The notes below the pieces were generated by a model. That model made no database searches, was not told the origin of the DNA, and saw nothing but the letters and a program-made list of their open reading frames with translations. The position numbers and the translations under genes were made by a program. From a virus, in IMG/VR virus record IMGVR_UViG_3300044655_001596, positions 1 to 64,000 of that record: a stretch of DNA of 64,000 nt. One strand, 5' to 3'. Below are positions 2,665 to 60,864 of the stretch, piece after piece; within the stretch, counting starts at the first letter, position 1; each line of letters opens with the position of its first letter.

Positions 2665-3358
2665 GCTTTGGGTGTTTGGCGACAGTTACAGTACACCAGA
2701 TGTTTGCGTTTCTCCACAAGAAAGTTTTTGGGGGTTAACTGCTTCTGCATTGGGAGTTGACACGGTGATTAACTGCAGCAGATCTAAGATAAGTTTTGAC
2801 AGTGTGTGTCAAATGCTAATAGGTGAACAGCAAAGATACAACTTTGATCAAGACTTTTTTGTCATTGGTCTGCCGCCTTTGGAAAGGATCACTGTATTTG
2901 ACGATTACAAAGACACCGCACTGGTAAGTTCTGTATTTGATACAAAAACGTGGCGAGCACAACCCAGTAATGTCGCAAGCCATCATGGATTGGTAAATTT
3001 ACAGTACAAGGAACTTGATCGATTGTCAGTGTTGATCAGTGATCGTAGTTGGATTGAAACCCAAGTTTTGCGACAGATATTTTTAATAACCAAGTGGTTG
3101 GATTCCTGCAACGCTAACTACATTGTTGTAAATCTCAGTAAAAATTTAGATCCAAACAATCACTGGGGACCAAGTCAATACATACTAGATTATTGTGTAG
3201 CTCACAACAGATGTAAAATATTTGATGGCTCCATGTATGATGTTAACTTGAACATCAACCGGCCAGCAGATTATGACAATTTTGGATGGCACGGGCATCA
3301 CGGACCTGCCGGCAACCGACATTTTTTTGAAACAAGCATAAAGGACAAACTTTGTTAA
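2645..3358 (+). CDS. SGNH/GDSL-like hydrolase fold protein
   Basis: A 237-residue protein beginning at TTG with an AAGGA site upstream. WVFGDSYS at residues 9-16 matches block I (GDS) of SGNH hydrolases, FVIGLPP has the position of a core strand, and the C-terminal GWHGHHGPAGN supplies histidines where the family has DxxH. Such enzymes cleave ester bonds of lipids or acylated sugars, so a role on cell-surface or virion glycans is possible. The placement between primase and helicase, overlapping both by 20 and 7 bp, says only that it is co-transcribed. The substrate is unknown. Confidence 0.6.
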   Translation: MSKEYNRLWVFGDSYSTPDVCVSPQESFWGLTASALGVDTVINCSRSKISFDSVCQMLIGEQQRYNFDQDFFVIGLPPLERITVFDDYKDTALVSSVFDTKTWRAQPSNVASHHGLVNLQYKELDRLSVLISDRSWIETQVLRQIFLITKWLDSCNANYIVVNLSKNLDPNNHWGPSQYILDYCVAHNRCKIFDGSMYDVNLNINRPADYDNFGWHGHHGPAGNRHFFETSIKDKLC

Positions 3359-4809
3359 AAGAATACGGACTTGATGTCCAAAGACTATTTCTAGAGATGA
3401 TGTTGGAAGACGCAACAAGTTATGTGCGTGTTCAAAACATCTACAACCCACAAAACTTTGACAAGAGTTTGAGATCAGCGGCTGAGTTTATCAAAGAACA
3501 TTCAGACAAACACAAGACCATGCCTGACAGGCAACAGATTTCAGCAACCACTGGGGTTAAACTTGCACCAGTGCCGGACTTGAACGAAGGTCACTTTGAC
3601 TGGTTCATGGGCGAGTTTGAAGCATTTACCCGACGTCAAGAACTTGAACGTGCTATTTTGAAGTCAGCAGACTTGCTGGAGAAAGGCGAATTTGAACCCG
3701 TTGAAAAACTCATCAAAGATGCAGTACAGATATCACTCACTAAAGACATGGGCACGGATTACTTTGCTGATCCTAAAGCTCGCATTGAGAAATACTTTAA
3801 CTCGGGCGGGCAAGTAAGCACAGGATGGCCACAACTGGATAGATTGTTGTATGGTGGATTCAGTCGTGGTGAACTCAACATCTTTGCAGGTGGCTCTGGT
3901 TCGGGTAAGTCACTTGTGATGATGAACATTGCGCTAAACTGGCTACAACAAGGATTATCAGGTGTGTACATTACACTTGAACTATCAGAAGAACTCACAA
4001 GTTTGCGAACAGATGCCATGTTAACCAACATGAGCACCAAAGACATCCGCCGTGACATGGACACAACTGAACTCAAGGTCAAACTGGTGGCCAAGAAGTC
4101 TGGCAACTATCAAGTGAAAGGTTTGCCAGCACAGAGCAACATCAATGACATTCGTGCTTACTTGAAAGAGTATCAAATTCAAACAGGCAAGAAAGTGGAC
4201 TTTGTGATGATTGACTACTTGGACTTGCTGATGCCTGTTAGTGCCAAGGTGTCACCCAATGACTTGTTTGTGAAAGACAAGTATGTGAGTGAAGAACTAC
4301 GCAACTTGGCCAAAGAACTGGCAGTGCTAATGGTCACTGCAAGCCAGTTGAATCGTAGTGCGGTTGAAGAAATTGAATTTGACCACTCGCATATTTCGGG
4401 TGGTATTTCAAAGATCAACACAGCTGACAATGTGTTTGGTATCTTTACTTCACGTGCTATGAAAGAGCGTGGCAAGTATCAAATTCAATGTATGAAGAGT
4501 CGTAGTTCGACAGGGGTTGGGCAAAAGATTGATCTGGAATACAACATTGAAACCATGCGAATTACTGACGAAGGTGGGGATGAAGGAACTGGATACAATA
4601 GACCCCAAAGCAGTATCATGGACTCAATCAAAGCTCGAAGTCAAGTCAAGGCTGCTGATACCGGAGAGTCAAGTGACTCATCTCCACCATGGGAACGAGC
4701 TACAGGAACTCCTGCCTGGGAAAAACCACCACAAGAAACAGGCAAAGTCACAGCAGATGTTCAAAGTGCAAAACTAAAACAACTGCTGGGGCAGATTAAA
4801 TCTAATTAA
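3352..4809 (+). CDS. replicative DNA helicase, T4 gp41/DnaB type
   Basis: A 485-residue RecA-fold hexameric helicase (T4 gp41 is 475) that unwinds DNA ahead of the phage fork and pairs with the gp61-type primase. Walker A is AGGSGSGKS near residue 185, Walker B is FVMIDYLDLL near 285, and TASQLNRSA near 335 is the DnaB-family motif that follows. The N-terminal 150 residues form the helical primase-interaction region. The C-terminal 80 residues are Ser/Pro/Glu-rich and low complexity. It starts at TTG with an AAGGA site 7 nt upstream and ends by overlapping a convergent minus-strand gene by 4 bp. Confidence 0.9.
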   Translation: MLKEYGLDVQRLFLEMMLEDATSYVRVQNIYNPQNFDKSLRSAAEFIKEHSDKHKTMPDRQQISATTGVKLAPVPDLNEGHFDWFMGEFEAFTRRQELERAILKSADLLEKGEFEPVEKLIKDAVQISLTKDMGTDYFADPKARIEKYFNSGGQVSTGWPQLDRLLYGGFSRGELNIFAGGSGSGKSLVMMNIALNWLQQGLSGVYITLELSEELTSLRTDAMLTNMSTKDIRRDMDTTELKVKLVAKKSGNYQVKGLPAQSNINDIRAYLKEYQIQTGKKVDFVMIDYLDLLMPVSAKVSPNDLFVKDKYVSEELRNLAKELAVLMVTASQLNRSAVEEIEFDHSHISGGISKINTADNVFGIFTSRAMKERGKYQIQCMKSRSSTGVGQKIDLEYNIETMRITDEGGDEGTGYNRPQSSIMDSIKARSQVKAADTGESSDSSPPWERATGTPAWEKPPQETGKVTADVQSAKLKQLLGQIKSN

Positions 4810-23583: not shown

Positions 23584-24681
23584 ATGAAGAAAATCTTCGC
23601 AATCATGATTGCACTTGCGGCTACCTCTGTGTTTGCTCAAAGTGCTGTCAACATCACTGGCTTGGTTGACACCGGCCTGTTGTTCACCAATGCAGCCACT
23701 GGTGTCAATACCAAAGGCCTTGCGGCCAACAATTCATCTACCACAGTGCTTACTATCGGAGGCACTGAGGATTTGGGCAGCGGCCTACGTGCCAATTTCA
23801 AACTGCAACTCACACCTGATTTTATTAATGGTGCTGGTGTTGAAGGCACCTCATACAACTCAACCACAGCAGGCACTGTGGGTGTTGGTCAAGAAGCCTT
23901 TATCGGTACAGAAGCCAATTGGGGCACTGTGAAACTTGGTCGTGTGAACTCAAACATCTTGGAAACATGGCTCAACGGCTCAGCACTCGGGACTGCTATT
24001 GGTTCAGGTTATGGATCAAACGGTAACATCTTTACTCGTTACAGTGCCACAGCAACTCACACAGCACAATCTGCACCCACACGTTTCAATGGAGCCATTC
24101 GTTATGAATCTCCTGCAGTAGCAGGTTTTAGTGGTTCTTATTTGTATGTGCCACCCAGTGCCAGCGTCAATGCTCAGAGTGTGGTTGACTATGGTGTAAA
24201 ATATGCCAATGGTCCTTTGAGTGTGCAGTATGCCTCTCAACGTATTGAACAATCAGGCACTTTGGCCACCACCACAGCATCATTTATTACCCCTGGTTCA
24301 CAGGCCTTAGAAGCCGGTACCAACAACACTCTTAGCCTGTTGTCGGCCAACTACCAGATTGGTGCCGCAACTGTGTATGGTGCTCGTTGGACAGAAAAAC
24401 AAAACACTGCCACCGCCATTGACCAGGTTGGACAGATGTTTGGTGCCAAGTACACCGTCGGTGCTACCAGCTTCATGATTTCAACTGGTTCCAGCAACGA
24501 AAAGAGCACAGCCAATGTAGACAAGAAAATTCTTGGGTACGGTGTGAATCATGACCTAAGCAAAAGAACCACCTTGTATGCACGTCTTGATACTCGTGAT
24601 GCTGACACTAACACAGCAGGTGCCACAGCCGCTGCTGGTGTAACAAAGCGCACCGCAGTTGGTATACGCCACACGTTCTAA
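23584..24681 (+). CDS. Gram-negative trimeric porin (betaproteobacterial Porin_4 type)
   Basis: A 365-residue outer-membrane beta-barrel. It has a Sec signal peptide (MKKIFAIMIALAATSVFAQ), a first strand VNITGLVDTGL, the GTEDLGSGLRANFKLQ motif and RVNSNILE region of beta-proteobacterial porins, GVNHDLSKRTTLYARLD near residue 320, and a C-terminal phenylalanine (GIRHTF), the BAM-complex signal. The length is normal for the family. It has its own consensus promoter and terminator, so it is an independent cassette. A phage porin could alter nutrient uptake or mask/replace the receptor to exclude superinfecting phage, as the lambdoid PA-2 Lc porin does. Recent acquisition from the host is likely. 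Confidence 0.95.
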   Translation: MKKIFAIMIALAATSVFAQSAVNITGLVDTGLLFTNAATGVNTKGLAANNSSTTVLTIGGTEDLGSGLRANFKLQLTPDFINGAGVEGTSYNSTTAGTVGVGQEAFIGTEANWGTVKLGRVNSNILETWLNGSALGTAIGSGYGSNGNIFTRYSATATHTAQSAPTRFNGAIRYESPAVAGFSGSYLYVPPSASVNAQSVVDYGVKYANGPLSVQYASQRIEQSGTLATTTASFITPGSQALEAGTNNTLSLLSANYQIGAATVYGARWTEKQNTATAIDQVGQMFGAKYTVGATSFMISTGSSNEKSTANVDKKILGYGVNHDLSKRTTLYARLDTRDADTNTAGATAAAGVTKRTAVGIRHTF

Positions 24682-28126: not shown

Positions 28127-28581
28127 AAAAAATCTACTACGAAAAACGTGGTCGCAGGTACGTGCCTGTCGCTGAAAATGACTATGACATGTTTGATGCC
28201 ATGCCAAAAGGCGCACATCTTGTGATGTGCTATCCTGGTGGACAAAGCAAACGCTACAACATCAACCCTAACTATGCGGCCTTGATTGCCGCTGGGCGTG
28301 TTGCTGAGGATGCAATGAGCGAAGCCATTCGCAAGGCCAGCGAACTGCGACCACAAAAAACCACTATTACCCCAGGACAAAAGCAAGCCTGGGAAAAGTT
28401 GGCCAAAGAGTTTGGTAGTGAATTAGCCACATTGCAAATCAGTAGTGCCAGAGATATTGCCGAAGCAGGATTGAAAGCATTGCAAGCAGAAGCAGATAAA
28501 TTAATGCAACACGAAAGTGTAAAAAGTGCATACGAACAATTCCTGTTGGTATGCGAATTAACCAAGAAGGAGAATGCATAA
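28123..28581 (+). CDS. phage protein of unknown function, helical C-terminus
   Basis: A 152-residue protein starting at GTG, overlapping the upstream gene by 4 bp. The N-terminal part has strands (YYEKRGRRYVPVAEND, HLVMCYPGGQSKRY), while residues 50-150 are helical and Ala/Glu-rich with coiled-coil character (SEAIRKASELRPQ, EAGLKALQAEADKLMQ). The stop overlaps the start of the BAX-inhibitor-like gene. A binding-adaptor role would fit but is not shown. Confidence 0.6.
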   Translation: MKKIYYEKRGRRYVPVAENDYDMFDAMPKGAHLVMCYPGGQSKRYNINPNYAALIAAGRVAEDAMSEAIRKASELRPQKTTITPGQKQAWEKLAKEFGSELATLQISSARDIAEAGLKALQAEADKLMQHESVKSAYEQFLLVCELTKKENA

Positions 28582-29276
28582 TGTATGCAACAACAGTTGA
28601 CAGTTATCGAGACGCCGCAGGCGTAAACCAGGCCATGGGCCGAGTATATGGCCATATGGCGCTGGCTGTGCTAACCAGCATGCTTGTGAGCATGTTTGTG
28701 GGCATGAACCCAGAACTGGTTGAGTTTTTCTTTACCGGCATCATGAAGTGGGTAGTGATCTTTGCACCACTTGCGGCAGTGTTTGTGGTTGCACCTGTAC
28801 TGGCCAGTAACCCAACACCTCCGGTGGCCATGGCGGCTCTACACGGCTTTGCGGCCTTGATGGGTCTGAGCTTTGCAATGATCTTTGTGATCTACACCAT
28901 GGGATCGATCTTTACTGCCTTCATGGGTGCGGCTGTGCTTTTTGGCACCATGAGTGGGTATGGTTATTTTACCAAACAAAGTCTTGATTCAGTAGGCAAG
29001 TATGCCTTTGTCGCTTTGATCGCCATCTGCATTGCCAGTATAGTTAATATCTTTATTGGCAGCACCGTGATGCAGATGGTGATCTCCGCAATTGCAATCT
29101 TGGTGTTTTTGGCACTCACGGCCTACGACACTCAAACCATTCGTGAAAGAGTATCACGTGAAGATAGCACCTATGGTGATGAAGTGTCTGGAGCACTGAG
29201 TTTGTACCTGGACTTTATCAATATCTTTATTCACTTGCTCCAGTTGTTTGGAATTATGAACAACAAAGACGACTAA
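28581..29276 (+). CDS. BAX-inhibitor-1 / YccA-family membrane protein
   Basis: A 231-residue integral membrane protein with seven predicted hydrophobic segments (bacterial members are 219-236). The family signature TAYDTQTIRE near residue 190 and the C-terminal SLYLDFINIFIHLLQLFG near 212 supply the two acidic residues of the pH-sensing Ca2+ leak channel pair. E. coli YccA binds and inhibits the FtsH membrane protease, so a phage copy could shield phage membrane proteins or alter lysis timing. The FtsH link is established for YccA but inferred here. It is coupled to its neighbours by one-base overlaps. Confidence 0.9.
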   Translation: MYATTVDSYRDAAGVNQAMGRVYGHMALAVLTSMLVSMFVGMNPELVEFFFTGIMKWVVIFAPLAAVFVVAPVLASNPTPPVAMAALHGFAALMGLSFAMIFVIYTMGSIFTAFMGAAVLFGTMSGYGYFTKQSLDSVGKYAFVALIAICIASIVNIFIGSTVMQMVISAIAILVFLALTAYDTQTIRERVSREDSTYGDEVSGALSLYLDFINIFIHLLQLFGIMNNKDD

Positions 29277-31295: not shown

Positions 31296-32798
31296 ATGAT
31301 ATTTGGATTTGCTATTCTCGCCACCGCATTGTTGTTAAGCATGGTGGCTGCTTATTACTCAGTAGCCGGATTGGTGGCCATATTTTCTGCGGCGACCATT
31401 CCGGTTATCATCATGGGTGGCAGCCTGGAACTGGGCAAGATTGCAGCCACAGTGTGGTTGCACAACAATTGGCGACGTGCTGGTTGGGCATTCAAGTTTT
31501 ATCTTGTGCCTGCTGTGGCGTTTCTCATGATCTTGACTAGTATGGGTATTTTTGGATATCTATCAAAAGCACACAGTGATCAAAGTTTAGTGTCGGGCGA
31601 TGTACAAAGTAAAATTGCCATCTATGACGAAAAGATCAAGACAGCAAAGGACAATATAGATGCGAACCGGAAGGCGCTTAGACAGATGGATGAAGCTGTG
31701 GACCAAGTTATGGGTCGAAGCAGTGATGAAAAAGGTGCCGACAAAGCTGTTGCAATCCGACGAGCACAGCAAAAAGAACGTGCAAGACTTCAATCCGAGA
31801 TCGCGGCCGAACAGAAAACAATTGCCGCCGTTAGCGAAGAACGTGCGCCAATCGCTGCCGAGGTTCGTAAGGTTGAAGCAGAAGTTGGACCGATAAAATA
31901 CATTGCGGCCTTGCTGTACGGAGACAACCCTGACAACAATCTGCTAGAACGTGCGGTGCGTTGGATGATCATAATGATTGTGCTGGTGTTTGATCCACTA
32001 GCACTAACCTTAATTCTAGCCGCCAACAAACAGTTTGAATGGGCACGACAAGGCACCGGAGGTTTTGTACACGACGAGCCCAAGTACGAGGCCGACGATG
32101 GTCCTTTAACTGACCAACAAGTTGATCAACTCAACAAATCTGTTGAAGTGCTTAAAACAGACCCGCACCCACCAGGCTGGATGTTTGACAAGTTTCCTTA
32201 TCTACAGGCTGGCGCGGCCATGTTCTTCAAAGACGTCAAACCCATGCCGGCTCAGTCTGACAATGACCAAGCGGCCATGAACATTGTTGCAGAACCTCCT
32301 GGTATAGAAACACGCCCATTTACTCCTGACGAAATAGCGGCGCTGGAGGCGGCGGATCACGAAGATGAAGAGGATGATGCACTCAAAGCTGCCATTAGAC
32401 AATGGAAAGCTGCCAACCCCGACGATACCTTGAAGAACCAACGTTTCAAATTGATGCGGGGAGAAATTGCTGAATTACCTTGGATGGGCTTGTTGGCTGA
32501 CAATGAATCAAGAAAAGAAATAAACAGTGGGTTTGGCACACAGTTTCCACCACATGCCGAACGTGGCGATACCTTTGTAAGAGTTGACCGCCTGCCCACA
32601 GTGGTCTATAAGTACAATGGTAAAGACTGGATAGAAGTTGACAAAAATCTAACAGACAGTTATACTTACGATATTGCTTATATTGATCACTTGATAGAGC
32701 GCATTGCATCTGGCGAATATGATGCTGAACTATTGAGTGAAATCGAGCGTGAGCAAGTGTCCCAACGTTTACAATCAAATACAAATACAAACACATGA
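31296..32798 (+). CDS. membrane protein with coiled coil (DUF4407-like topology)
   Basis: A 500-residue protein. Two adjacent membrane segments cover about residues 2-43, a third 68-90, and a fourth 223-246 (MIIMIVLVFDPLALTLILAA). Between the third and fourth lies a 100-residue charged coiled coil (KIAIYDEKIKTAKDNIDANR onward), predicted periplasmic or cytosolic depending on orientation. The last 240 residues are soluble, acidic and Pro-rich. Proteins of this design are recurrent in T4-like aquatic phages and have no known role. It overlaps clpX by 4 bp, so the two are co-translated. Confidence 0.65.
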   Translation: MIFGFAILATALLLSMVAAYYSVAGLVAIFSAATIPVIIMGGSLELGKIAATVWLHNNWRRAGWAFKFYLVPAVAFLMILTSMGIFGYLSKAHSDQSLVSGDVQSKIAIYDEKIKTAKDNIDANRKALRQMDEAVDQVMGRSSDEKGADKAVAIRRAQQKERARLQSEIAAEQKTIAAVSEERAPIAAEVRKVEAEVGPIKYIAALLYGDNPDNNLLERAVRWMIIMIVLVFDPLALTLILAANKQFEWARQGTGGFVHDEPKYEADDGPLTDQQVDQLNKSVEVLKTDPHPPGWMFDKFPYLQAGAAMFFKDVKPMPAQSDNDQAAMNIVAEPPGIETRPFTPDEIAALEAADHEDEEDDALKAAIRQWKAANPDDTLKNQRFKLMRGEIAELPWMGLLADNESRKEINSGFGTQFPPHAERGDTFVRVDRLPTVVYKYNGKDWIEVDKNLTDSYTYDIAYIDHLIERIASGEYDAELLSEIEREQVSQRLQSNTNTNT

Positions 32799-34012
32799 AA
32801 TCAAATGATCAAATCACATCCTGCAGTTTTTGTGGAAAACACAAAGATGCAGTGGCTAAACTTATTGTAGGTGAAGGTGTTGCCATATGCAATGAGTGTG
32901 TGGAACTATGTGAAACTTTGCTGAAAGATGAAAATTTTGCCGGCACAGTCAGCCCTCCTGTTGTGATGGACCCTGAACACATAAAAAATCATCTAGATCA
33001 GTATGTGATTGGCCAGGATCGTGCCAAACAGGTACTGAGCGTGGCAGTGGTAAATCATTACAAACGCATTAGTAATCCGGGAACTGATACTGAGATTGAA
33101 AAGTGTAACATTCTCATGCTTGGCCCAACGGGGTCGGGCAAAACATTGTTGGCACGTAGTGTAGCACGTTACTTGGATGTACCGTTCGTGATTGCCGATG
33201 CCACAAGTCTTACTGAAGCAGGTTATGTAGGCGACGACGTTGAGAGCTTGATCTCTAGATTGTTTGCCGCATCGGGCGGTGACATCGCCAAAACACAGCG
33301 CGGCATTGTGTTCATTGACGAAATTGACAAAATCAGTCGCCGCAGTGAAAGTGCTTCAATCACACGAGATGTGTCAGGAGAAGGTGTACAACAGGCCTTG
33401 CTTAAACTGGTAGAAGGCACCAAGTGCAGAGTCACTCCCACAGGAAATCGCAAGCATCCTTCAGGTGACATGATTGAGATTGATACCACTAACATCTTGT
33501 TTATTGCTGGTGGTGCGTTCGTGGGTCTTGATGCAGTGGTAAAAAATCGTGTGCGTGGAACTTCGATTGGTTTCAGTGCAAAAGTAAAAGACGACACAGA
33601 AACACACCTAGACCAAGTCACACCAGAAGACTTGATCAAGTTTGGTATGATTCCAGAGTTTGTGGGTCGTTTCCCTAGCTGGGTAGCACTCAACGAACTC
33701 AACAAAGAAGATTTGATCCGTATCTTGCTGGATGTCAAACACAGTTACATTGCACAATACTCTTGGTTGTTTGAACAAGACAAAGTAGAACTAGAATTCA
33801 GTGCAGAAGCCTTGGAAATGATTGCAGATCGCACTATTCTAAACAAAACTGGTGCTAGGGGTTTGCACTCAGAGCTAGAACGTGTGTTACTCCCCCATAT
33901 GTTTTATTTGGCCCGTTATCGTAGGGAAGGAGTAAACCGCGTGTTTATTGATGCAGATCAGGTAAATACCCCTACAGAACTAAAGGAAGCAAATGGAAAA
34001 GCTAAGGGGTAG
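32795..34012 (+). CDS. clpX: ClpX, ATP-dependent unfoldase of ClpXP
   Basis: A 405-residue complete ClpX (E. coli 424). The zinc-binding domain has Cys10, Cys13, Cys32 and Cys35. The AAA+ module has Walker A GPTGSGKT (110-117), pore loop GYVG (143-146), Walker B IVFIDE (171-176), an RKH loop (219-221), and GARGL sensor-2. The ClpP-docking IGF tripeptide is present at 258-260, so it should be able to engage ClpP. Two clpP-like genes lie 13-15 kb downstream and a clpS-like gene 0.8 kb downstream. It recognises and unfolds tagged proteins for degradation. It overlaps rpsU by 20 bp. Confidence 0.97.
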
Positions 34013-34304: not shown

Positions 34305-34763
34305 ATGACAAAAACTCTCACCCTTCGTAGTTTCGACATTCCCGCACTCACCAAATTTGGTATCGGTTTCGATAACATGTTTGATGAACTCATGCGTGTG
34401 AGTACTCAACAATCCTCAACCAACTACCCGCCCTACGATATTGTACAAATCAATGACGACGAGTACATGATCAGTGTGGCTGTGGCCGGTTTTGGGCATG
34501 ACAACCTTACTGTGACCAAGGACAAAAACTTCTTGATTATTGAAGGCAAGCACAGTCGTGAAACTGTGGAGAATGACGATGCCACTGCAAAATATTTGCA
34601 CAAAGGTATTAGTGAAAGAAGTTTCCGCAGAGAATTCCAACTTGCGGATCATGTGGAAATTAGTAATGCTCACCTTGAACTAGGTATTCTCAGCGTTCAC
34701 TTGCGACGTGAAGTGCCCGAAGAAGCCAAGCCAAAGACTATTGCTATCACATACACTTCCTAA
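34305..34763 (+). CDS. small heat-shock protein, Hsp20/IbpA family
   Basis: A 152-residue holdase chaperone. The alpha-crystallin domain spans about residues 42-140, with VAVAGFGHDNLTVTKD as its hallmark strand pair, FRREFQLADHVE, and the GILSVHL (G-x-L) motif; an IAITYTS C-terminus includes the I-x-I tail motif. It keeps unfolding proteins soluble and could feed substrates to a phage ClpXP. Hsp20 genes are common in T4-like cyanophages. It has an AAAGGAG site and an independent leader. Confidence 0.93.
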   Translation: MTKTLTLRSFDIPALTKFGIGFDNMFDELMRVSTQQSSTNYPPYDIVQINDDEYMISVAVAGFGHDNLTVTKDKNFLIIEGKHSRETVENDDATAKYLHKGISERSFRREFQLADHVEISNAHLELGILSVHLRREVPEEAKPKTIAITYTS

Positions 34764-40153: not shown

Positions 40154-40178
40154 CTAATATTCAAAAATGCTGTATAAT
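40150..40178 (+). promoter_or_regulatory. sigma70 promoter of the UV endonuclease, leaderless type
   Basis: TTGACT, 17-bp spacer, TATAAT (40173-40178). It overlaps the stop of the amidinotransferase gene and ends 6 nt before the ATG at 40185. Confidence 0.85.
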
Positions 40179-40184
40179 TACAGC

Positions 40185-41225
40185 ATGACTACACCTATTA
40201 CTCCTCGTATCGGCTTTTGTTGCAAATGGCTCAATGATCCCACGGAATGTGGTGGTATGAAAGTCAATGCCAAAGACCGTGATCTAAACGGGCGTTCCAC
40301 TACCATGCGCTGGCTTCGTGAGCACAAGGACGAAGCTGAACAGCGTCAGTGGGACATTATGAATCACAATGCGTCAGCGGCTGTGAAGATGATTGAGCGT
40401 GTGGGCACATTGCCTCCTGAACGGCGCATGGTGCGTCTAGGCAGTGAGATGCTACAAGGCTACACTGAGAAAGATTGGATTGACTGGTGGCAACGACGTG
40501 AAATTCAAGATCACTGCGAACAAATTTTTAAACCGGTGGGCGATACTGCTCGGAGGCTTGGCGTTCGGCTTTCCTTCCATCCAGGGCAATTTTGTGTACT
40601 AGCAAGTGAGAGTGATGAGATTGTGGAACGATCCATCCTCGAGTTTGAATACCATGCTGATATGGCACGGTGGATGGGCTACGGCGAGACCTGGCATGAT
40701 CATGGATTCAAGATCAACGTACACTTGTCAGGCAAAGGCGGCCCTGCTAAGTTTTTGCAAACACTCAAGCGATTGAGTCCCGAGGCTCGCAACCTCATAA
40801 CTATCGAAAATGATGAGATGACAAATGGATTGGACACTACTTTGGCTGTGGCTCAGCATGTGGCTCTTGTGTTGGACGTACACCACCACTGGATCAACAC
40901 CGGCGAATACATCGAACCGCAGGACGTTCGTACAAGTCGGGTTATTGACAGCTGGCGCGGTGTTCGTCCTGCAATGCATTTTAGTACTAGTCGCGAGGAC
41001 ATTTTGGTCGACCATGTTCGAACAGTTCGACCAGACCTTGCTGAACTTCTTGCTAGAGGTTTTAAAAAGCAGAAGCTCCGAGCACACAGTGACTTCTGTT
41101 GGAACTCAGCTGTAAACGACTGGGTCTTGGGCTTTAGTGACCAGTTCGATATACAAGTAGAAGCCAAGGGCAAGAACTTGGCAAGTGAACAACTTTATGA
41201 ACAATATACTTCTCAACATCTTTGA
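40185..41225 (+). CDS. uvdE: UV damage endonuclease (UVDE family)
   Basis: A 346-residue TIM-barrel nuclease that nicks 5' of UV photoproducts. Metal-site motifs appear in order: LSFHPGQFCVL, FKINVHLSG, ITIENDEMTNG, LVLDVHHHWI, AMHFSTSR, LRAHSDFCW and the C-terminal VEAKGKNLA. The N-terminal RIGFCCKWL block is also typical. Cyanophages carry UvdE for repair of sunlight damage, consistent with an aquatic surface host. The preferred start has no leader: the -10 box ends 6 nt before the ATG. Confidence 0.95.
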   Translation: MTTPITPRIGFCCKWLNDPTECGGMKVNAKDRDLNGRSTTMRWLREHKDEAEQRQWDIMNHNASAAVKMIERVGTLPPERRMVRLGSEMLQGYTEKDWIDWWQRREIQDHCEQIFKPVGDTARRLGVRLSFHPGQFCVLASESDEIVERSILEFEYHADMARWMGYGETWHDHGFKINVHLSGKGGPAKFLQTLKRLSPEARNLITIENDEMTNGLDTTLAVAQHVALVLDVHHHWINTGEYIEPQDVRTSRVIDSWRGVRPAMHFSTSREDILVDHVRTVRPDLAELLARGFKKQKLRAHSDFCWNSAVNDWVLGFSDQFDIQVEAKGKNLASEQLYEQYTSQHL

Positions 41226-42817: not shown

Positions 42818-43488
42818 AACCCACCATAGCCCTATTCCTGCACGACCCCAAGTGTAGTGTACAAAGCGGTAATGGGCTCATGCGAGCCCTGGGCGATCAC
42901 TACAAGTTCAAAATATTCGGGCGCAATCAGCTGGAAGACACATTTTTTGAAGATGTAGACATGGTTGCTGTGCCCGGCGGTATTGGTGACGCAGACACCT
43001 TTGACGGGCTGTTCAAACACAGTGCCGAACGTGTGAGGCAATTTGTTGACGGTGGTGGCCGGTATCTAGGAATCTGCATGGGCGCATACTGGGCAGGAAG
43101 CGCATATCTTGACATCTTGGATGGGGTAGATGCAGTACAATATATCCGCCGCCCGGGAACAGACACACGCAGACCACATGCCAAAAACTTGCCTGTGTTA
43201 TGGCAAGATCGTTATGGAAGTGTTGAGCCTTGGAAGATGTTTTTTTATGATGGGTGTGCGCTGGTGGGAGACCGTACCAAGTTCAAGACTCTGGCCACGT
43301 ACATGAATGGCGACGCCATGGCAATTATACAAAACAACATTGGCCTAATAGGATGTCATCCTGAAAGTGAACAATTCTGGTACGACAGTTACTCATGGAT
43401 GCGTGGTCGATATCACAGAGGACAACACCATACCCTGTTGTTGGACTTTGTAGATCAGTTAATGCACACGAAGCCGAGCAAGCCTTAA
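42814..43488 (+). CDS. class I glutamine amidotransferase-like protein (BPL_N type)
   Basis: A 224-residue protein with VAVPGGIGDADTF near residue 51, the nucleophile elbow YLGICMGAYW with Cys88, and a histidine in GCHPESEQFWYD near 190. This pattern fits the biotin-protein-ligase N-terminal (BPL_N) branch of the glutaminase/DJ-1-like superfamily. The reaction is unknown. It overlaps the convergent desaturase gene by 30 bp. Confidence 0.75.
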   Translation: MKPTIALFLHDPKCSVQSGNGLMRALGDHYKFKIFGRNQLEDTFFEDVDMVAVPGGIGDADTFDGLFKHSAERVRQFVDGGGRYLGICMGAYWAGSAYLDILDGVDAVQYIRRPGTDTRRPHAKNLPVLWQDRYGSVEPWKMFFYDGCALVGDRTKFKTLATYMNGDAMAIIQNNIGLIGCHPESEQFWYDSYSWMRGRYHRGQHHTLLLDFVDQLMHTKPSKP

Positions 43489-44166
43489 CAGTCTAAACAG
43501 GCTGAGCCACATCCAGCCTATGTCAAACTCCCACCACTTTTTAGAGAGGCGGGCACTCGCTGGTTCCAGGTGGTGGTTGTTGTGCAACTCTTCGCCACCA
43601 ATAACAATACCCCAAGGGCTAATATTGCGACTATGATCTTTAGTTTTGCCATTACGATATCCTATCCAATGTCCTACACCGTTGATGACTCCAGCTGCCC
43701 AGAAAGGAATCCACAGCATCTGAATGCCCCAAATCAACACTCCCCACCAACCAAATATCAAGACATCTAGCATAAAGAGAATGCCAATGCCAAGTCTAGA
43801 GTGAGGCTGGTATACGTGAAGCTCCATCCAATCAGCAGGAGTACCAACACCATATGTATTAACCATATCCGTATCTTTTGATGCTTCATGATATAACCCT
43901 GCTCCTTTAAAAAACACTCTTTTGATTCCATACACATGTGGTGAGTGTGGATCTCCATCCGCATCGCTAAATCTATGATGTTTGCGATGTATGGCCACCC
44001 ACTGTTTGGTTACCATGCCTGTGGTCAACCATAACCAGGCTCGCATAAAGTGTTCAAGTATGGGATGAAATTCTATGCCTCGATGTGCTTGGCCACGATG
44101 CAAATACAACGTGACACAAACGATAGTAATGTGTGTCATTGCCAGTGTTGCGATTAGTTCTGTCAT
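43459..44166 (-). CDS. fatty acid desaturase
   Basis: A 235-residue membrane-bound acyl-CoA/acyl-lipid desaturase with three His boxes: YLHRGQAHR (HRxxAH type), HRKHHRFSDADGDPH and EELHNNHH. It would introduce double bonds to adjust membrane fluidity during infection, as in cyanophages. Hydrophobic segments flank the first two boxes (TLAMTHITIVCVTL; LGIGILFMLDVLIFGWWGVL). A minus-strand ATTAAATA box ends 4 nt before the ATG. Confidence 0.95.
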   Translation of the reverse strand: MTELIATLAMTHITIVCVTLYLHRGQAHRGIEFHPILEHFMRAWLWLTTGMVTKQWVAIHRKHHRFSDADGDPHSPHVYGIKRVFFKGAGLYHEASKDTDMVNTYGVGTPADWMELHVYQPHSRLGIGILFMLDVLIFGWWGVLIWGIQMLWIPFWAAGVINGVGHWIGYRNGKTKDHSRNISPWGIVIGGEELHNNHHLEPASARLSKKWWEFDIGWMWLSLFRLLRLARLRVH

Positions 44167-44609: not shown

Positions 44610-44888
44610 ATGTTTACAGCAGACGCATTCATCGACACCGTTCAAACCGGTAAAAAAACTTGGGTCAACACTTTTGTGACCAATGAGGCCATGAAAGACG
44701 CAATGATCAAATTCGTTGACAACCAAGCCGACTACACCAAAAAAGCCATCAAGGCTACCACAGACGCCGCAACCACTGTTGCCAGCGAAACTGTCAAAGC
44801 TGTGCAAGAAGCTACCAAATTTGACTATGTGAAATTTGGCGAAGGAATCATGAAGGCTTACACCGCCCAGTCATCTAAATCAAAGTAA
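44610..44888 (+). CDS. phasin-like amphipathic helical protein
   Basis: A 92-residue, almost fully alpha-helical protein, rich in Ala, Lys and Thr (MFTADAFIDTVQTGKKTWV, YTKKAIKATTDAATTVA, FDYVKFGEGIMKAY). The pattern resembles phasins, which coat polyhydroxyalkanoate granules in betaproteobacteria. A phage phasin could manipulate host carbon stores. The family call is from composition and helix pattern, not from a strict motif. It has its own promoter, leader hairpin and terminator. Confidence 0.6.
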   Translation: MFTADAFIDTVQTGKKTWVNTFVTNEAMKDAMIKFVDNQADYTKKAIKATTDAATTVASETVKAVQEATKFDYVKFGEGIMKAYTAQSSKSK

Positions 44889-44910: not shown

Positions 44911-44936
44911 AGCCCCAGATTTTGGGGCTTTCTCTT
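44911..44936 (+). terminator. intrinsic terminator of the phasin-like gene
   Basis: AGCCCCA-GATTT-TGGGGCT followed by TTCTCTT, 22 nt after the stop. Confidence 0.85.
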
Positions 44937-44963
44937 GACCAATAATTCGTCATCTGCTATAAT
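44935..44963 (+). promoter_or_regulatory. strong early-type sigma70 promoter, short-leader
   Basis: TTGACC, 17-bp spacer, TATAAT (44958-44963), ending 9 nt before the ATG at 44973. Confidence 0.8.
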
Positions 44964-44972
44964 TACTGCATT

Positions 44973-45125
44973 ATGAAGCCAATCCATTTTGTTTTGCAGG
45001 CTCCCCGAGAGCGTCGACATCGTGCCCTGTTTGATCAGGACTTGCCGTTCCGCGGTCGTGTGGAGCGGCCAAAGACCGAGTATCGGCGCAGACCCAAACA
45101 CAAGAATCGCGAGCAACAAGAATGA
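44973..45125 (+). CDS. tiny Arg-rich protein
   Basis: A 50-residue, very basic protein (PRERRHRALFDQDLPFRGR, RRRPKHKNREQQE). It has no ribosome site and starts 9 nt after a strong -10 box. The stop overlaps the next ATG (ATGA). It may be an early nucleic-acid or host-factor binding protein; the function is unknown. Confidence 0.55.
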   Translation: MKPIHFVLQAPRERRHRALFDQDLPFRGRVERPKTEYRRRPKHKNREQQE

Positions 45126-45367
45126 AACTTATTGCACCTCTATTGCTGTCGTTGTTGGTGGGTTGCGCTTCGCAATCTTACACACCGCCACCTTCTGTTG
45201 CGGCCATGCCCAATGACTGTGCCAACCGGCAGGCAATCATCAGTTGGTTAGAAACACAAGCCCGAGTTCCTCGTCAAGCATTTGAAAGTGAGAAGCACTA
45301 TGAACAAACACGCTCGCAGATTCGCCACCGTTTGTGGCATGTGCGTTATAACTGTCAGCCTGTTTAG
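45122..45367 (+). CDS. small lipoprotein
   Basis: An 81-residue lipoprotein with signal peptide and lipobox LLVGC (Cys15), mature part starting CASQSYTPPPS. The mature protein is short and helical (DCANRQAIISWLETQA, HYEQTRSQIRHRLWHVR). Spanin or outer-membrane roles are possible. It is the first of four consecutive exported proteins up to 47048, and is coupled to the gene before by ATGA. Confidence 0.8.
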   Translation: MKLIAPLLLSLLVGCASQSYTPPPSVAAMPNDCANRQAIISWLETQARVPRQAFESEKHYEQTRSQIRHRLWHVRYNCQPV

Positions 45368-45623
45368 TGGATGTGCAACTCATCCAGATGTCACACGCAT
45401 ACCCATGGCCACAATAGATCTCAATCACTTTCAAGTTGATTGTAGGATCAAAGATCAACAGGTGGCCATGTTGCAAGCCATGCGCCAAACACCCAACGAA
45501 CAATTTGGCAGTCGCATGCGAGCCATGAATCCTTTTGTTTGGACCAGTGATCATGATGTGGCATTCAACAATCCCAACAAGTACATCAACTACCATCTCA
45601 ACAATTTGAGGTATTGCCCATGA
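45300..45623 (+). CDS. lipoprotein
   Basis: A 107-residue protein with a twin-hydrophobic signal (ARRFATVCGMCVITVSLFSGC) and lipobox LFSGC at about residues 24-28. The mature part is soluble with two further Cys (VDCRIKDQQ, RYCP). The upstream gene overlaps it by 68 bp, and the stop overlaps the next gene by 4 bp. Outer-membrane or periplasmic anchoring is predicted; function unknown. Confidence 0.7.
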   Translation: MNKHARRFATVCGMCVITVSLFSGCATHPDVTRIPMATIDLNHFQVDCRIKDQQVAMLQAMRQTPNEQFGSRMRAMNPFVWTSDHDVAFNNPNKYINYHLNNLRYCP

Positions 45624-46180
45624 AACGACTGCTAATTGCCGCATTGATACCTGCCAGTGTACTGGCGTCCGAGTGTGTGTTGCAGGATCGAACCGTGACT
45701 GCCAGTGCAGTTCGCATTGAAGAACGATCTGGTCTTCGCGAAGATGTTGTTCCTGCACCCGACGGAGGCCGTAGATGCATGGTCAATTTTAAAGCACGAG
45801 TTGGTGCCACTTGGTATTGGGCACAAGGCCATTATGATTGGCCCGGCGATCGCCCACGTGGTGAAGCCTGTGCTGTGGCTGTGTCGCGAGCCGAAGATTC
45901 AGTTCGAACACAAGTGGCGCCCAGTCATGTGCGTAGTGAAAAGGTAATGGTGTGTTCGGACCAACGCGATCTGGAACTGCTTCGCAGTACCAATCCCGGC
46001 AGCGTAGGACGACTGCACCAATTTCGTCCGCATCCAGACTTTCCGCGAGAGTTTTGGCACAATGGTGCTCGCTGTCGCTGGTTTTTGGATAGCACTTTTC
46101 GACATCAAGATGTCTACACCTACCAAGGCGTAATTTGCCAAATCCAAAAGGATCAATGGGTAGTGGTTGACAAGTTTTGA
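45620..46180 (+). CDS. secreted protein with conserved cysteines
   Basis: A 186-residue protein with a Sec signal (MKRLLIAALIPASVLASE). The mature part has six Cys, paired around CVLQDRTVTASAV, RRCMVNFKARVG, GEACAVAVSRAE, KVMVCSDQRD, ARCRWFLDSTF and QGVICQIQKD, suggesting a disulphide-bonded periplasmic fold. It overlaps the upstream lipoprotein by 4 bp. No family is recognised. It ends before the promoter of the next lipoprotein. Confidence 0.7.
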   Translation: MKRLLIAALIPASVLASECVLQDRTVTASAVRIEERSGLREDVVPAPDGGRRCMVNFKARVGATWYWAQGHYDWPGDRPRGEACAVAVSRAEDSVRTQVAPSHVRSEKVMVCSDQRDLELLRSTNPGSVGRLHQFRPHPDFPREFWHNGARCRWFLDSTFRHQDVYTYQGVICQIQKDQWVVVDKF

Positions 46181-46195
46181 TCATTTGTGTATAAT
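46167..46195 (+). promoter_or_regulatory. sigma70 promoter
   Basis: TTGACA, 17-bp spacer, TATAAT (46190-46195), overlapping the end of the upstream gene; GAAAGG precedes the ATG at 46230. Confidence 0.8.
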
Positions 46196-46229
46196 AGAAG
46201 TATCGTGTAACTAACCTGAAAGGTTTTGT

Positions 46230-47048
46230 ATGTTAATCAAACGTTTATCTGTCCTAGCAGTGGCCACAAGCCTTGTGGCATGTGCAAGCACAACGGCACA
46301 AAAAGCCGAAACTGTGGCTCCCGCTCCGGTGACCCGTGTGGTTGAAATAGCACCGCAAGTGGCGCCTGCACCACACCCTTATGCCTTGCCTGAACGGCAA
46401 GTTCGCACAGTGGTACGAGCTCCTGCTTGGTTCGTGAACTTGCCCGAAGATACCGCAGACATGACCTTTGCTGTGGGCACTGCAACATCAACGGATGAGC
46501 AAATGGCCTACGACAAAGCACGTATGGCTGCAGAGCGCAAACTGGTTGAGCAGATGTATGCTAGAATTACCACACAGACCAACAGCTTCAAAGCTGATCG
46601 TGGCAGTGCAACAATTGAAAACTACCAGCAAGTCACACGCAAAAATGCACGTGGTGAGCTGAGTGGTGCTCAACGAGTAGACAGTCAAGTCACACATGAT
46701 GGGCAATACTACAAGGTCTATGTACTATTGCGATTGCCTACAGGCGCCAACAACACAATGCAAACACGTCGTGATCAACAACGTCTGCAACGTGAAGCAG
46801 AAATCCGCGGTCGCGCCGCAGAACGCAACATGGACGCAACCGAAGCTCGTGATGCGCAGATTGAGCAAGAAAATACTCGCTCACTTGAGCGTAGTCTTGA
46901 ACCCCAGAGCAAAGTTACCCCTGTAACTGTACCCACAACGTCTGGAGAACTTAAACTGCTGGATGTTGACAACGCTGAATATCGGCAAAAAAGGGCAGAA
47001 GCACTACAAAAACCTGGTGCTGTAGTAGGACAAACAGTAGTTAGATAA
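46230..47048 (+). CDS. LPP20-like lipoprotein
   Basis: A 272-residue lipoprotein: signal peptide with lipobox LVACAST (Cys18), a Pro-rich tether, and then APAWFVNLPEDTADMTFAVG near residue 70 followed by a long helix (EQMAYDKARMAAERKLVEQM), the signature of LPP20-type lipoproteins. YYKVYVLLRLPTG near 158 is the second conserved strand. The last 90 residues are helical and charged. It has its own promoter and ends at a hairpin terminator. Role unknown, probably at the outer membrane. Confidence 0.75.
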   Translation: MLIKRLSVLAVATSLVACASTTAQKAETVAPAPVTRVVEIAPQVAPAPHPYALPERQVRTVVRAPAWFVNLPEDTADMTFAVGTATSTDEQMAYDKARMAAERKLVEQMYARITTQTNSFKADRGSATIENYQQVTRKNARGELSGAQRVDSQVTHDGQYYKVYVLLRLPTGANNTMQTRRDQQRLQREAEIRGRAAERNMDATEARDAQIEQENTRSLERSLEPQSKVTPVTVPTTSGELKLLDVDNAEYRQKRAEALQKPGAVVGQTVVR

Positions 47049-47062
47049 GCCCAAAAACGGCG

Positions 47063-47070
47063 TATAAATA
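47063..47070 (+). promoter_or_regulatory. exact T4 late promoter consensus
   Basis: TATAAATA, identical to the T4 late -10 consensus, upstream of the first clpP-like gene (47108). Confidence 0.6.
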
Positions 47071-47097
47071 AAAGCGGTGCTAAAAACACCGCTTTCT
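47071..47097 (+). terminator. hairpin, terminator or leader structure
   Basis: Nine-bp stem AAAGCGGTG/CACCGCTTT with a 7-nt loop, followed by CTCC rather than a long T run. It ends the LPP20-like gene, or lies at the 5' end of a late clpP transcript. Confidence 0.6.
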
Positions 47098-47107
47098 CCA
47101 CTTTAAA

Positions 47108-47683
47108 ATGACCATTGAAACCACACAAACAATTGAGCAGACTCACACCCAAGCCTTGGCCGACAACGGTATGTATGTTTTCATGGGCGAGGTTGACAAT
47201 GACAACATCAAACCTATAATTGAATGGATCCTGCACGAGAACTTTGTGACCAAGAGAAAACGCAAAGAACTCTTGCTGATGATTTGCTCAGAAGGTGGGG
47301 ACATGAGTTCGGCATTTGCCTTGATTGATGTCATGCGCAGTTCTGTCATTCCAATCAAAGTTGTGGGACTGGGGCAGATTGCCAGTGCTGGATTATTGAT
47401 CTTTTTAGCAGGAACACCGGGTCGTAGAACGCTCACTCCCAATACATCAATCATGAGTCACCAGTATGCCTGGGGCAGTGATGGCAAACATCACGAGCTG
47501 TTGGCCACAATTAAAGAGTTTGAGCTAACACAAACCCGTATGGTACAGCACTACATAGATTGTACAGGGTTAGATGAAGCCCAAATCAAGCAACACCTGT
47601 TGCCACCGCATGATGTTTATTTAGGTGCAGACGATGCCTTGCGTTTGGGCATTTGCGACCATATCAGCCAACTGTCTCGTTAA
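47108..47683 (+). CDS. ClpP-like serine protease subunit, divergent paralogue
   Basis: A 191-residue peptidase S14 protein. The catalytic triad can be placed: Ser93 in GLGQIASAGLLIF, His118 in SIMSHQY, and Asp169 in PHDVYLGADDAL. It is divergent from the canonical copy at 49306 (for example CSEGGDMSSAFAL in place of [13 protein letters not shown]). Two ClpP isoforms often co-assemble in mixed rings, so this may pair with the other phage subunit or the host ClpP. It converges on a minus-strand gene with a 4-bp overlap. Confidence 0.85.
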   Translation: MTIETTQTIEQTHTQALADNGMYVFMGEVDNDNIKPIIEWILHENFVTKRKRKELLLMICSEGGDMSSAFALIDVMRSSVIPIKVVGLGQIASAGLLIFLAGTPGRRTLTPNTSIMSHQYAWGSDGKHHELLATIKEFELTQTRMVQHYIDCTGLDEAQIKQHLLPPHDVYLGADDALRLGICDHISQLSR

Positions 47684-49254
47684 CCTTTTTTCCGACGTCC
47701 CAACGTCTTTTCGTCAAAGTCGGGCTGTGTGGCTTTCCTTGATGCTTTGGCGCCTGGGCCAGTCAATCTAGGCTCCTTGCCCACCTGATTCAAATCATCA
47801 GTATCGAGTTTTGCTGGCTCTGCTTGACCTGCTGGCATGTTGCCGGGCTCGGTGATATCTTCCCCGCCGGGTGAAAACTCCACACTCATTTTACCCTTGA
47901 TTTCACCTGCTGAACCCTTGGTCTTGAGCTTGACCTGACCGCTGATCTTGGCTGGCCAAAATGCTTCGGTTACCAGTCGGTCGCCTTTGACTTTGCTGTA
48001 TAGTTGCACAAAGTTGTAGCCTAAACTTTCAATCAAGGCCGCTCGCAATTCTGGCACAGCACGATCAGTGTTTACAGCTCGCATCACATCGCTAATGGTA
48101 GCATACCATGCTTTGCCGCCATCAGTTGCAGTGCCGTCTTTGACTTTGTCACTGAGTTGCTGGTTGAACTGTCTCATCACACTAGCAGGTAAAGATTGGC
48201 CAGTTTTAAAACTTCTTTCGTATTCGGCGACCGAGTCTGGTGTAAACGGAATCAAAGGATGATAGGCCTTGGGAACCTTGTTGGAATTCAACATGTATAG
48301 ATAGTTCATCATGGCAAATGGCTGAGTAAACTGTCCCAATGTGTCATCTTGTGCAATATCCAAGAATTCGGCAGCATCGGGGTATTTTTCTCTGACTTCG
48401 TTGGGTAACTTCATGCTGCCTAAACTGGGCGGAGCACCTGTTCCCGCGGCCTTACTGGAAATCTTAATCGCATGACCGTTTTCGTCATTAACCACACTAA
48501 AACTGTCGGCCAAGGGATTGTTGCTGGCCTTGGGAAAGTACATGATCAAGTCATCAAAATTAGCGCCCACAAATTCTTCAAACTCTTGCTTACTACCACG
48601 AATAAACGGAACAGTACCGCGAACCAGTCCTAACGCACCAAGATACTCGCTGGCGTACAACTCAATTGCTTTGATTTCATCCTTTGATAGATTGGACGGA
48701 AACATCGGAATCTGTCCGTCATTGACCTGTCGAGCCATGTATATCACAGCATCACCAACCTTGCCTAGCTTTTGTAAATCTGGATTGTTGGCCAAGCGAT
48801 CATACATTTCTGCTGCTGGGAAACCACCAGCCTGTAGCACAGTGTTCATGCTGTTGCCAAAGTCTTGAATTTCAATGTCTGTTGTGTTGAACACCTGACT
48901 GGGTTTGATGCTGATGTTTTCTGCTTCTTTGCTGCCAAACTCCACGGTTTTCAACAGCTCGGTATTTTTGACTGTGCCACCATCCTTGGTGTTCATGGTT
49001 ATGGTTTTTTTTGGGCCAGTTGCAATCCAAGCTGCTACACTATTGACTTCTGAAGGATCCACAATGACTTCGCCGCCACTGACCAAGGTAAATGGTGAAC
49101 CAGTTTGAACCTTGTGCAAAAATAGATCACCTCTAGAAAAAGGCTTCTTTGTAGCAGGATTGATCACTGAACTCATCTTGTTTGGAGGGATTTCACTGGC
49201 AGCCAAGTTGGCTTCAGTCAGTACATTGTCGAGTAAATTGAGTAGGTCACGCAT
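47680..49254 (-). CDS. large phage protein, probable virion component
   Basis: A 524-residue soluble protein. The N-terminus ([20 protein letters not shown]) resembles the start of internal virion proteins in this phage. Residues 60-150 are beta-rich ([32 protein letters not shown]), and the last 90 residues are a Lys/Gly/Pro-rich disordered tail ([18 protein letters not shown]) that could bind DNA. No enzyme motif is visible. A role as a head or DNA-packaging related protein is speculative. Confidence 0.55.
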
Positions 49255-49282
49255 TGCTATTTTCCAAGAATAATGTTATACT
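49254..49282 (+). promoter_or_regulatory. sigma70-type promoter of clpP
   Basis: TTGCTA, 17-bp spacer, TATACT (49277-49282), followed by AAGGAG before the ATG at 49306. It is divergent from the minus-strand gene start at 49254. Confidence 0.6.
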
Positions 49283-49305
49283 TATGCTTTGAACAAGGAG
49301 ACCCC

Positions 49306-49899
49306 ATGCCAAATCTAGTACCAATTGTGCTTGAACAAACCGCCAAAGGCGAACGCAGTTATGATATCTACAGCCGATTGCTCAAAGACCGTGTGATCAT
49401 GCTGGACACAGAAGTATCGGAACACACAGCCAGTTTGCTGGTAGCACAGATGCTGTTTTTGGAGAGTGAAAACCCTGACAAAGATATCTCCCTATATATC
49501 AATTCGCCAGGCGGATCGGTCACAGCAGGCATGGCCATCTATGACACCATGCAGTTTATCAAGTGTGATGTGCAGACCATTGTGATGGGTCAGGCCTGTA
49601 GTATGGGAAGTCTGCTAAGTACAGCAGGAGCCGCAGGCAAGCGCACGATCCTGCCCAATGCCCGACACATGATTCACCAACCATCAGGTGGTGCTCGTGG
49701 GCAAGCTACAGACATCCAAATCCAAGCACGAGAAATCCAAAAGATGAAAGAGTATCTCACCACAATCTATGTCAAGCACAACTCAGCAGGTAAAACCTAT
49801 GATGAATTTGCTCGTGACATGGAACGTGATTTCTTTATGAGTGCTCAAGAAGCCTTGGACTATGGACTAGTAGATAAAATTATCAACAAACGAGAATGA
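49306..49899 (+). CDS. clpP: ClpP, canonical ATP-dependent protease subunit
   Basis: A 197-residue complete ClpP (E. coli precursor is 207). The triad is Ser99 in GQACSMGS, His124 in HMIHQPSGG, and Asp175 in MERDFFMSA. The [11 protein letters not shown] loop, the ITRILDQP-like handle region ([13 protein letters not shown]) and the C-terminal GLVDKII are conserved. Unlike most bacterial copies there is no long propeptide. It can be expected to form tetradecamers with or without the divergent subunit and to dock the phage ClpX. It is coupled to the radical SAM gene by ATGA. Confidence 0.96.
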
Positions 49900-60066: not shown

Positions 60067-60864
60067 ATGATTACAAAGATATTAACCACAATCTTGTTAT
60101 GTGTGACTTTGTCAGCTCATGCCGACAGCGTGTTGTTGTACAACCTCTCACAAGATCGAACAGTAATGAGTCGCGATGCTGACCAGGTGCGTAGCATTGC
60201 CAGCATAACCAAAATCATGACTGCCATGGTTACTCTAGATTATGACATAGACCTTAGCCGTAAACTGATGTTGAGCAAGCGTGTTCACAGTTACCTTCCC
60301 AGGCAAATGTACACTCGAGAACAACTACTCAAGGCCATGTTGATCAAATCAGACAATGCGGCGGCTGAAACTCTAGCAGAAGATTACCCTGGCGGCAGGT
60401 CTGCATTTGTTGCTAGAATGAATCACCAAGCCCGGTTGTGGGACATGAAACGGACCAGCTTTGTTGACCCTTCGGGGCTGGGAGTATTCAACATCAGCAC
60501 AGCCAGAGACGTGGCTGACCTCATGCAAACCGCCATGGGATACTGGTTGATTCGCGAAGTCAGTGGTCAAAAGCAAGTGGCATTTGAAACCAAGTACGCC
60601 AAGAAAATTAGAACAATAAATTTGGAACACACGTCCGGACCATTGCTGTTTACGTTTGACAATGTATTGGTCAGCAAAACAGGATTGACCAATGCCGCGG
60701 GCTGGTGTGTGGGCATGGTAGTGGAGCAAAACAAACAACAATATGTGGTGGTAGTGTTAGGATCAAAAAACAAAAAACAACGCCTGGACACAGTAAAGGA
60801 TATTCGCTACAATCATGTGGTGGACACTTATTTGCGAGAGCTGGAGATTCCCACTACATACTAA
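60067..60864 (+). CDS. penicillin-binding-protein-type DD-peptidase (S11 family)
   Basis: A 265-residue periplasmic enzyme with a signal peptide (MITKILTTILLCVTLSAHAD). All three active-site motifs are present: S46ITK49, S95DN97 and KTG (204-206). The size fits PBP7-like D-Ala-D-Ala endopeptidases/carboxypeptidases, which trim peptidoglycan cross-links. In a phage it may weaken the wall or act in lysis, or remodel it to stop superinfection. It has no C-terminal amphipathic anchor beyond the final VDTYLRELEIP helix. Confidence 0.95.
   Translation: MITKILTTILLCVTLSAHADSVLLYNLSQDRTVMSRDADQVRSIASITKIMTAMVTLDYDIDLSRKLMLSKRVHSYLPRQMYTREQLLKAMLIKSDNAAAETLAEDYPGGRSAFVARMNHQARLWDMKRTSFVDPSGLGVFNISTARDVADLMQTAMGYWLIREVSGQKQVAFETKYAKKIRTINLEHTSGPLLFTFDNVLVSKTGLTNAAGWCVGMVVEQNKQQYVVVVLGSKNKKQRLDTVKDIRYNHVVDTYLRELEIPTTY

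Follow-up and report, generated by a model that had tools for sequence, protein, structure and literature searches.

A conserved gene block with early-type promoters in large aquatic phages encodes an LPP20/FlgP-type lipoprotein and candidate partners at the host outer membrane

Introduction

What might a large phage gain from a run of five small genes, four of which carry export signals, that is kept together across dozens of distinct contigs? The question is raised by positions 44973-47048 of a freshwater virus of bacteria, within a window that comprises the whole 64-kb stretch of DNA analysed here, out of a 77-kb virus record. A first-pass annotation had read the run (here termed o1 to o5) as small exported or basic early proteins led by strong sigma70 promoters, and had proposed a role in envelope remodelling or superinfection exclusion. 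Here, we use tblastn and profile searches over viral contigs to find relatives of the block, and from these and from the window itself we computed gene order, export signals, promoter conservation, gene fusions and predicted fold. The reading that we favour, and which we judge to be moderately probable, is that o1-o5 form an early operon of large T4-superfamily phages, and that the products of o2-o5 make up one outer-membrane-anchored periplasmic assembly that remodels or stabilises the outer membrane of the host.

The five genes and their export signals

All five open reading frames of the run are present as first described, and all lie on the plus strand:

o1, 44973..45125, plus strand: 50 aa, with 11 Arg and 4 Lys, without a signal peptide
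o2, 45122..45367, plus strand: 81 aa, lipobox LVGC with Ala at position +2
o3, 45300..45623, plus strand: 107 aa, lipobox FSGC, ATG start within o2
o4, 45620..46180, plus strand: 186 aa, secreted two-domain protein with a Sec signal and six Cys in the mature part
o5, 46230..47048, plus strand: 272 aa, LPP20/FlgP-type lipoprotein, lipobox LVAC

The early description of the products as exported or basic stands for o2-o5, which have export signals, and for the basic character of o1; where it fails is in the export of o1, a distant relative of DUF7230 and phrog_6310 that lacks a signal peptide and probably stays in the cytoplasm as a small basic protein with a role of its own. The two lipoproteins that had been noted by their LVGC and FSGC lipoboxes are o2 and o3, respectively, the Cys-rich secreted protein is o4, and the LPP20-like lipoprotein is o5, for which FlgP is the best structural match of the model. 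The envelope destination proposed for the group is likewise well supported by the relatives, across which both signal peptides and lipoboxes are conserved, with the o2 lipobox recognised by pattern in 41 of 45 homologues. Several o5 homologues (L013, L014, L041, L045 and L050) have a signal peptide without a lipobox, so that lipidation of o5 seems not to be strictly required.

The genes are tightly packed, with 4-nt overlaps between o1 and o2 and between o3 and o4. The overlap of o2 with o3 measures 68 nt in the window, a length found in 24 of the 39 loci compared (65 nt in five, 77 nt in three), and for o3 the ATG at 45300 is a likelier start than the TTG at 45282. Both proteins have one conserved Cys pair, which in o2 (Cys33, Cys78) lies close to the two ends of the mature part, and which in o3 consists of Cys48 and Cys106. 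A reading of o2 and o3 as mutual duplicates is not supported: their full-profile hhalign comparison is suggestive (P 5e-5), but once the signal peptides are removed 92 of 200 column shuffles reach the score.

Conservation of the block and its genomic setting

The gene order that recurs in relatives is phasin-like gene, o1, o2, o3, o4, o5, ClpP1 and ClpP2, and all eight families are found together in 25 loci. Among the 60 distinct o5 loci, defined as those with at least 1.5 kb of upstream sequence, o4 lies directly before o5 in 52 and o2 or o3 is present in 46, with o2 and o3 being absent or undetected in some relatives. Because this synteny recurs across dozens of distinct contigs, the five reading frames are not a product of chance. 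For o2-o5, dN/dS values of 0.08-0.13 (measured against L002 and L003), which are like those of ClpP in the nearest pair, indicate strong purifying selection.

Parts of the block extend to cultured phages of the Kyanoviridae. An o5-like gene is present in HTVC008M, Mosig and Melnitz, to which Melnitz adds a small lipoprotein gene and an o4-like gene in the same order as in the window, followed by a cell wall hydrolase gene; these counterparts are annotated as 'hypothetical', with one 'surface antigen' in HTVC008M. Searches of the phage collection gave no o2 or o3 homologues by tblastn and no near DNA match to the window. Of the best-listed records, those of jumbo phages such as PA5oct and Atu_ph07 come closest to the replicative helicase (3352-4809; 47% identity), and contigs bearing relatives of the block reach 364 kb, which makes it probable that the 77-kb record represents part of the genome of a large T4-superfamily phage. 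Neither o4 nor o5 had a match in PA5oct, Atu_ph07, XaC1 or Phosso, the jumbo phages whose helicases were the best-listed matches. Judged from these sequence comparisons, the block is widespread among large phages of aquatic habitats, and part of it occurs in the cultured marine phages Melnitz, HTVC008M and Mosig.

As for the neighbouring genes, a phasin-like gene (44610-44888) lies upstream of the block in most relatives. Downstream are two ClpP-like genes, the diverged ClpP1 with its late promoter (47108-47683) and a canonical one (49273-49899), which are separated by a highly variable minus-strand gene (47680-49254); ClpX is encoded at 32795-34012. Further envelope or stress genes of the phage are a Gram-negative porin (23584-24681), a Bax1-I family protein (28551-29276), Hsp20 (34305-34763) and a D,D-carboxypeptidase (Peptidase_S11, 60067-60864), and the record also carries a UV-endonuclease UvdE (40167-41225) and a fatty acid desaturase (43459-44166).

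Transcription signals and timing

The signals that bear on the expression of the block, together with the gene that precedes it, are as follows:

44610-44888: phasin-like small protein (a label of ours; Pfam gave no confident match), with a promoter-like site of its own
44911..44929, plus strand: intrinsic-terminator-like stem-loop directly upstream of the o1 promoter, the two together being PeSL-like
44935..44963, plus strand: early-type sigma70 promoter TTGACC-17-TATAAT with extended -10 (TG), 11/12
46167..46195, plus strand: early-type promoter TTGACA-17-TATAAT, a perfect 12/12, upstream of o5
47063..47070, plus strand: T4-type late promoter TATAAATA upstream of ClpP1, at the boundary of the early block
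47071..47095, plus strand: stem-loop AAAGCGGTG/CACCGCTTT immediately after the late promoter, upstream of ClpP1

The strong sigma70 promoters of the first-pass annotation correspond to the 11/12 site before o1 and the 12/12 site before o5, both of which recur in relatives. A promoter of at least 11/12 lies within 150 nt before o1 in 22 of 31 loci and within the same distance before o5 in 16 of 63, against an expectation of 0.1 in each case. Promoter-like sites as such are no more numerous in the region than expected (8 vs 8.4), and one further 12/12 promoter-like site (47193) falls inside ClpP1. The late promoter TATAAATA precedes ClpP1 in 21 of 51 loci (0.35 expected) and, sought before each of o1-o5 in the relatives, was present before none. 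As both host-type promoters are conserved while a T4-type late promoter appears only at the next gene, ClpP1, the sequence supports the claim that the block is early.

The arrangement of the stem-loop and the o1 promoter recalls the PeSL cassettes of T4-like phages, in which a stem-loop is coupled to an early promoter (PMC4503421). The o1 promoter is conserved in the form TTGACCAATAA...TGCTATAATTACA.CATG, with its -10 box ending 9 nt before the o1 ATG in the window and 6-9 nt before it in most relatives that have the site, a spacing from which the early o1 transcript is probably leaderless. At the other end of the block, the stems of the hairpin at 47071..47095 vary among relatives yet remain paired (by eye from the listed sequences), and this element is likely to serve both as the terminator of the early block and as the 5' hairpin of the late ClpP1 transcript.

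An LPP20/FlgP-type lipoprotein

Profile and model comparisons agree in identifying o5 as an LPP20/FlgP-type lipoprotein, with an SHS2-like fold related to the solved structures of this group. Its own score against Pfam LPP20 (PF02169) is 22.1 bits, below the curated cut-off of 25.9, while 13 of 19 o5 homologues match the family at E<=1 (best 2.6e-5), and a profile of 53 o5-family sequences finds HP1454, an 'LPP20 lipofamily' protein, as its best chain in the PDB (E 0.009). The AlphaFold2 model of o5 (pLDDT 77.7) has a Pro-rich linker, an SHS2-like core with a beta-hairpin insert and a long C-terminal helix, in the order b1, helix, b-hairpin, b2, b3, long C-terminal helix. In a Foldseek search, its top match is 9hmf_A (prob 1.00, E 0.0025), a chain from the motor scaffold of Campylobacter, followed by HP1454 (4kzs; prob 0.94, E 5.9e-3), these E-values being above 0.001 and the TM-scores low (0.45 normalised to the FlgP chain).

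FlgP itself adds a hairpin insert and an additional C-terminal helix to an SHS2-like fold, and in FlgP and FlgT the insert correlates with ring formation (PMC12222027). The order of elements in o5, together with its N-terminal linker, agrees with FlgP as described in PMC12222027 and PMC11756786, and the hairpin insert region is kept in 51 of 51 aligned homologues, although it is modelled at only moderate confidence (block pLDDT 60-71). With FlgP of the Campylobacter basal disk and with the LPP20 proteins (H. pylori Lpp20, HP1454), o5 has in common the lipoprotein signal and, in its model, the unstructured linker, the SHS2-like core, the C-terminal helix and, at moderate confidence, the hairpin insert. 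It differs from them in being encoded by a phage, in its sub-threshold Pfam score, in having no flagellar genes beside it and in the C-terminal tail LLDVDNAEY, which is conserved in its nearest relatives.

The partner protein o4 and its fusions

Bacterial DUF4384 proteins also contain the N-domain of o4 (E 6e-8 for L147). The C-domain of o4 weakly resembles the 17 kDa surface antigen (PF16998; 20.3 bits, below the cut-off of 26.6), a match that involves the C-terminal part of o4 only and is seen at E<=1 in 16 of 18 members. A PDB structure search with the o4 model (pLDDT 75.7) returned no significant or clear match. Bacterial genomes searched with the full o4 profile gave no confirmed homologue, and the bacterial relatives of the N-domain were found only by way of o5.

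In bacteria, all eight loci found, which belong to Nitrosomonadaceae, Comamonas and Alphaproteobacteria MAGs, have a gene for a protein with the o4 N-domain and DUF4384 upstream of one for an o5-like LPP20 lipoprotein. The MAG loci L144, L145 and L147-L151 are chromosomal operons with the order DUF4384 protein, (TPR/GNA1162-like lipoprotein), LPP20 lipoprotein; the bracketed gene intervenes in those Nitrosomonadaceae and Comamonas loci that were inspected. What the phage block has in common with these operons is that an o4-type N-domain protein is encoded upstream of the o5-like lipoprotein, whereas phage o4 is without DUF4384 and has the surface-antigen-like C-domain, and the phage block includes o1-o3 and has no TPR protein.

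Gene fusions link o4 to the small lipoproteins. One (L050:4087-4878) joins an o2-like domain to the o4 C-domain, and another (L084:3916-4587) joins a small Cys-pair lipoprotein of the o2/o3 kind to the same domain, with the o4 part lacking a signal peptide of its own in both. Because the fusion is found in two lineages, and in each the o4 part has no export signal apart from that of its partner, a small Cys-pair lipoprotein and o4 very likely act together at the outer membrane.

Alternative explanations

Several other functions could be proposed for these genes. In exclusion of the T5 Llp/Cor type, o2 and o3, acting from the periplasm, would each bind to a receptor in the outer membrane of the host and so prevent adsorption, while o4 and o5 would assist them or provide another layer of exclusion; this we regard as possible but on balance doubtful. 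T5 Llp is an early outer-membrane lipoprotein of about 65 aa in its mature form, with a Cys11-Cys58 pair (PMC9586334), a design that o2 shares as a small, early, predicted outer-membrane lipoprotein of ~65 aa mature length with two Cys (mature-part Cys19 and Cys64) close to its ends; the early promoters of the block also fit. The sequences indicate, however, that the resemblance is one of design and not of homology, in that hhalign comparison of o2 and o3 with Llp/Cor matches the signal peptide only, and the PHROG Cor family (PHROG 1119, phrog_1119) finds Llp at 1e-19 and no o2-type or o3-type protein. Unlike Llp/Cor, o2 also sits within a conserved multi-gene block. The purifying selection and deep conservation of the genes would be unusual in an arms race over receptors and speak against a loosely assembled group of receptor-masking genes; the genes behave as one conserved module around the FlgP/LPP20-type protein. 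A PADLOC search for known defence genes gave weak matches to o2 alone (E 0.017-0.02). By analogy, superinfection exclusion by the block is plausible, as had been proposed at the outset.

The remaining explanations draw on the neighbours and the likenesses of single genes. That o5 and o4 are accessories of phage curli (type VIII) secretion, assisting CsgG/CsgF pores in the export of curlin-like proteins, is improbable, given that CsgG is detectable in 9 of 38 block-bearing records (some of the nine being near-identical), that the records with no detectable CsgG, many of which are fragments, include the 77-kb record of the window and that the Pelagibacter phage Mosig has o5 without it. Its appeal lies in operons of CsgF, CsgG, curlin-repeat and FecR genes situated ~3 kb upstream of o5 (L008:584-3498 and L057:172-2059, both minus strand) or just downstream (L082:6394-9707, plus strand), and annotated also in HTVC008M and Melnitz, both carriers of o5-like genes. 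The pelagimyophage and Melnitz papers report CsgA/CsgB as missing; a curlin repeat is present in every CsgG-positive record that was scanned for such repeats. More improbable still is a role in lysis, in which o2/o3 would act together with a cell wall hydrolase, either as outer-membrane spanins or by weakening the envelope. The lipobox region does give weak spanin hits, the overlap of the two lipoprotein genes recalls Rz/Rz1 and the Melnitz block is followed by a hydrolase, but the promoters are early with no late promoter before o1-o5, and the gene after the block in the window is ClpP1. A two-component spanin pair (Rz/Rz1) was rejected, as o2 and o3 both carry lipoboxes and no inner-membrane subunit lies between them. 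We give equally little credence to interference with the flagellar motor, whereby o5 as a FlgP-like decoy and its partner o4 would disturb ring or disk assembly and halt swimming. The FlgP-like fold suits such a decoy; against it, there are no flagellar genes near the block, and o5-like genes are found also in phages of SAR11 and OM43, hosts in which we know of no flagella.

A model for the block during infection

In the reading that we favour, that of a single assembly at the outer membrane, host RNA polymerase would transcribe o1-o4 from the promoter at 44935 early after infection, and o5 would be transcribed from the second promoter at 46167. The o2 and o3 proteins would be lipidated and sorted to the outer membrane, o4 would dock onto a lipoprotein of the o2/o3 type, and o5, carrying its FlgP-like fold on a flexible linker, would oligomerise beneath the membrane into rings or a disk-like layer. 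The resulting assembly would remodel or stabilise the host outer membrane during infection; this could help the infected cell to stay sealed and might exclude other phages as well. We infer, in this model, that the proteins form a complex and rings, when they act in vivo and what biological purpose they serve. In H. pylori, the outer-membrane barrier is protected by a lipoprotein whose gene neighbours flgP (PMC11756786), and for this reason a protective role is a reasonable alternative to exclusion. A bolder version, which we consider unlikely, is that the phage builds an early ring or disk layer under the host outer membrane, with FlgP-type o5 tied to it via o4 and disulfide-pinned lipoproteins, and that some lineages couple this layer to phage curli secretion.

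The curli operons with curlin-like genes beside the block bear on the question of what purpose phage CsgG/CsgF pores serve. That phages employ single small lipoproteins at the outer membrane is known; a conserved early multi-protein assembly around a ring-former of the FlgP/LPP20 type would, if true, be an envelope takeover on a different scale.
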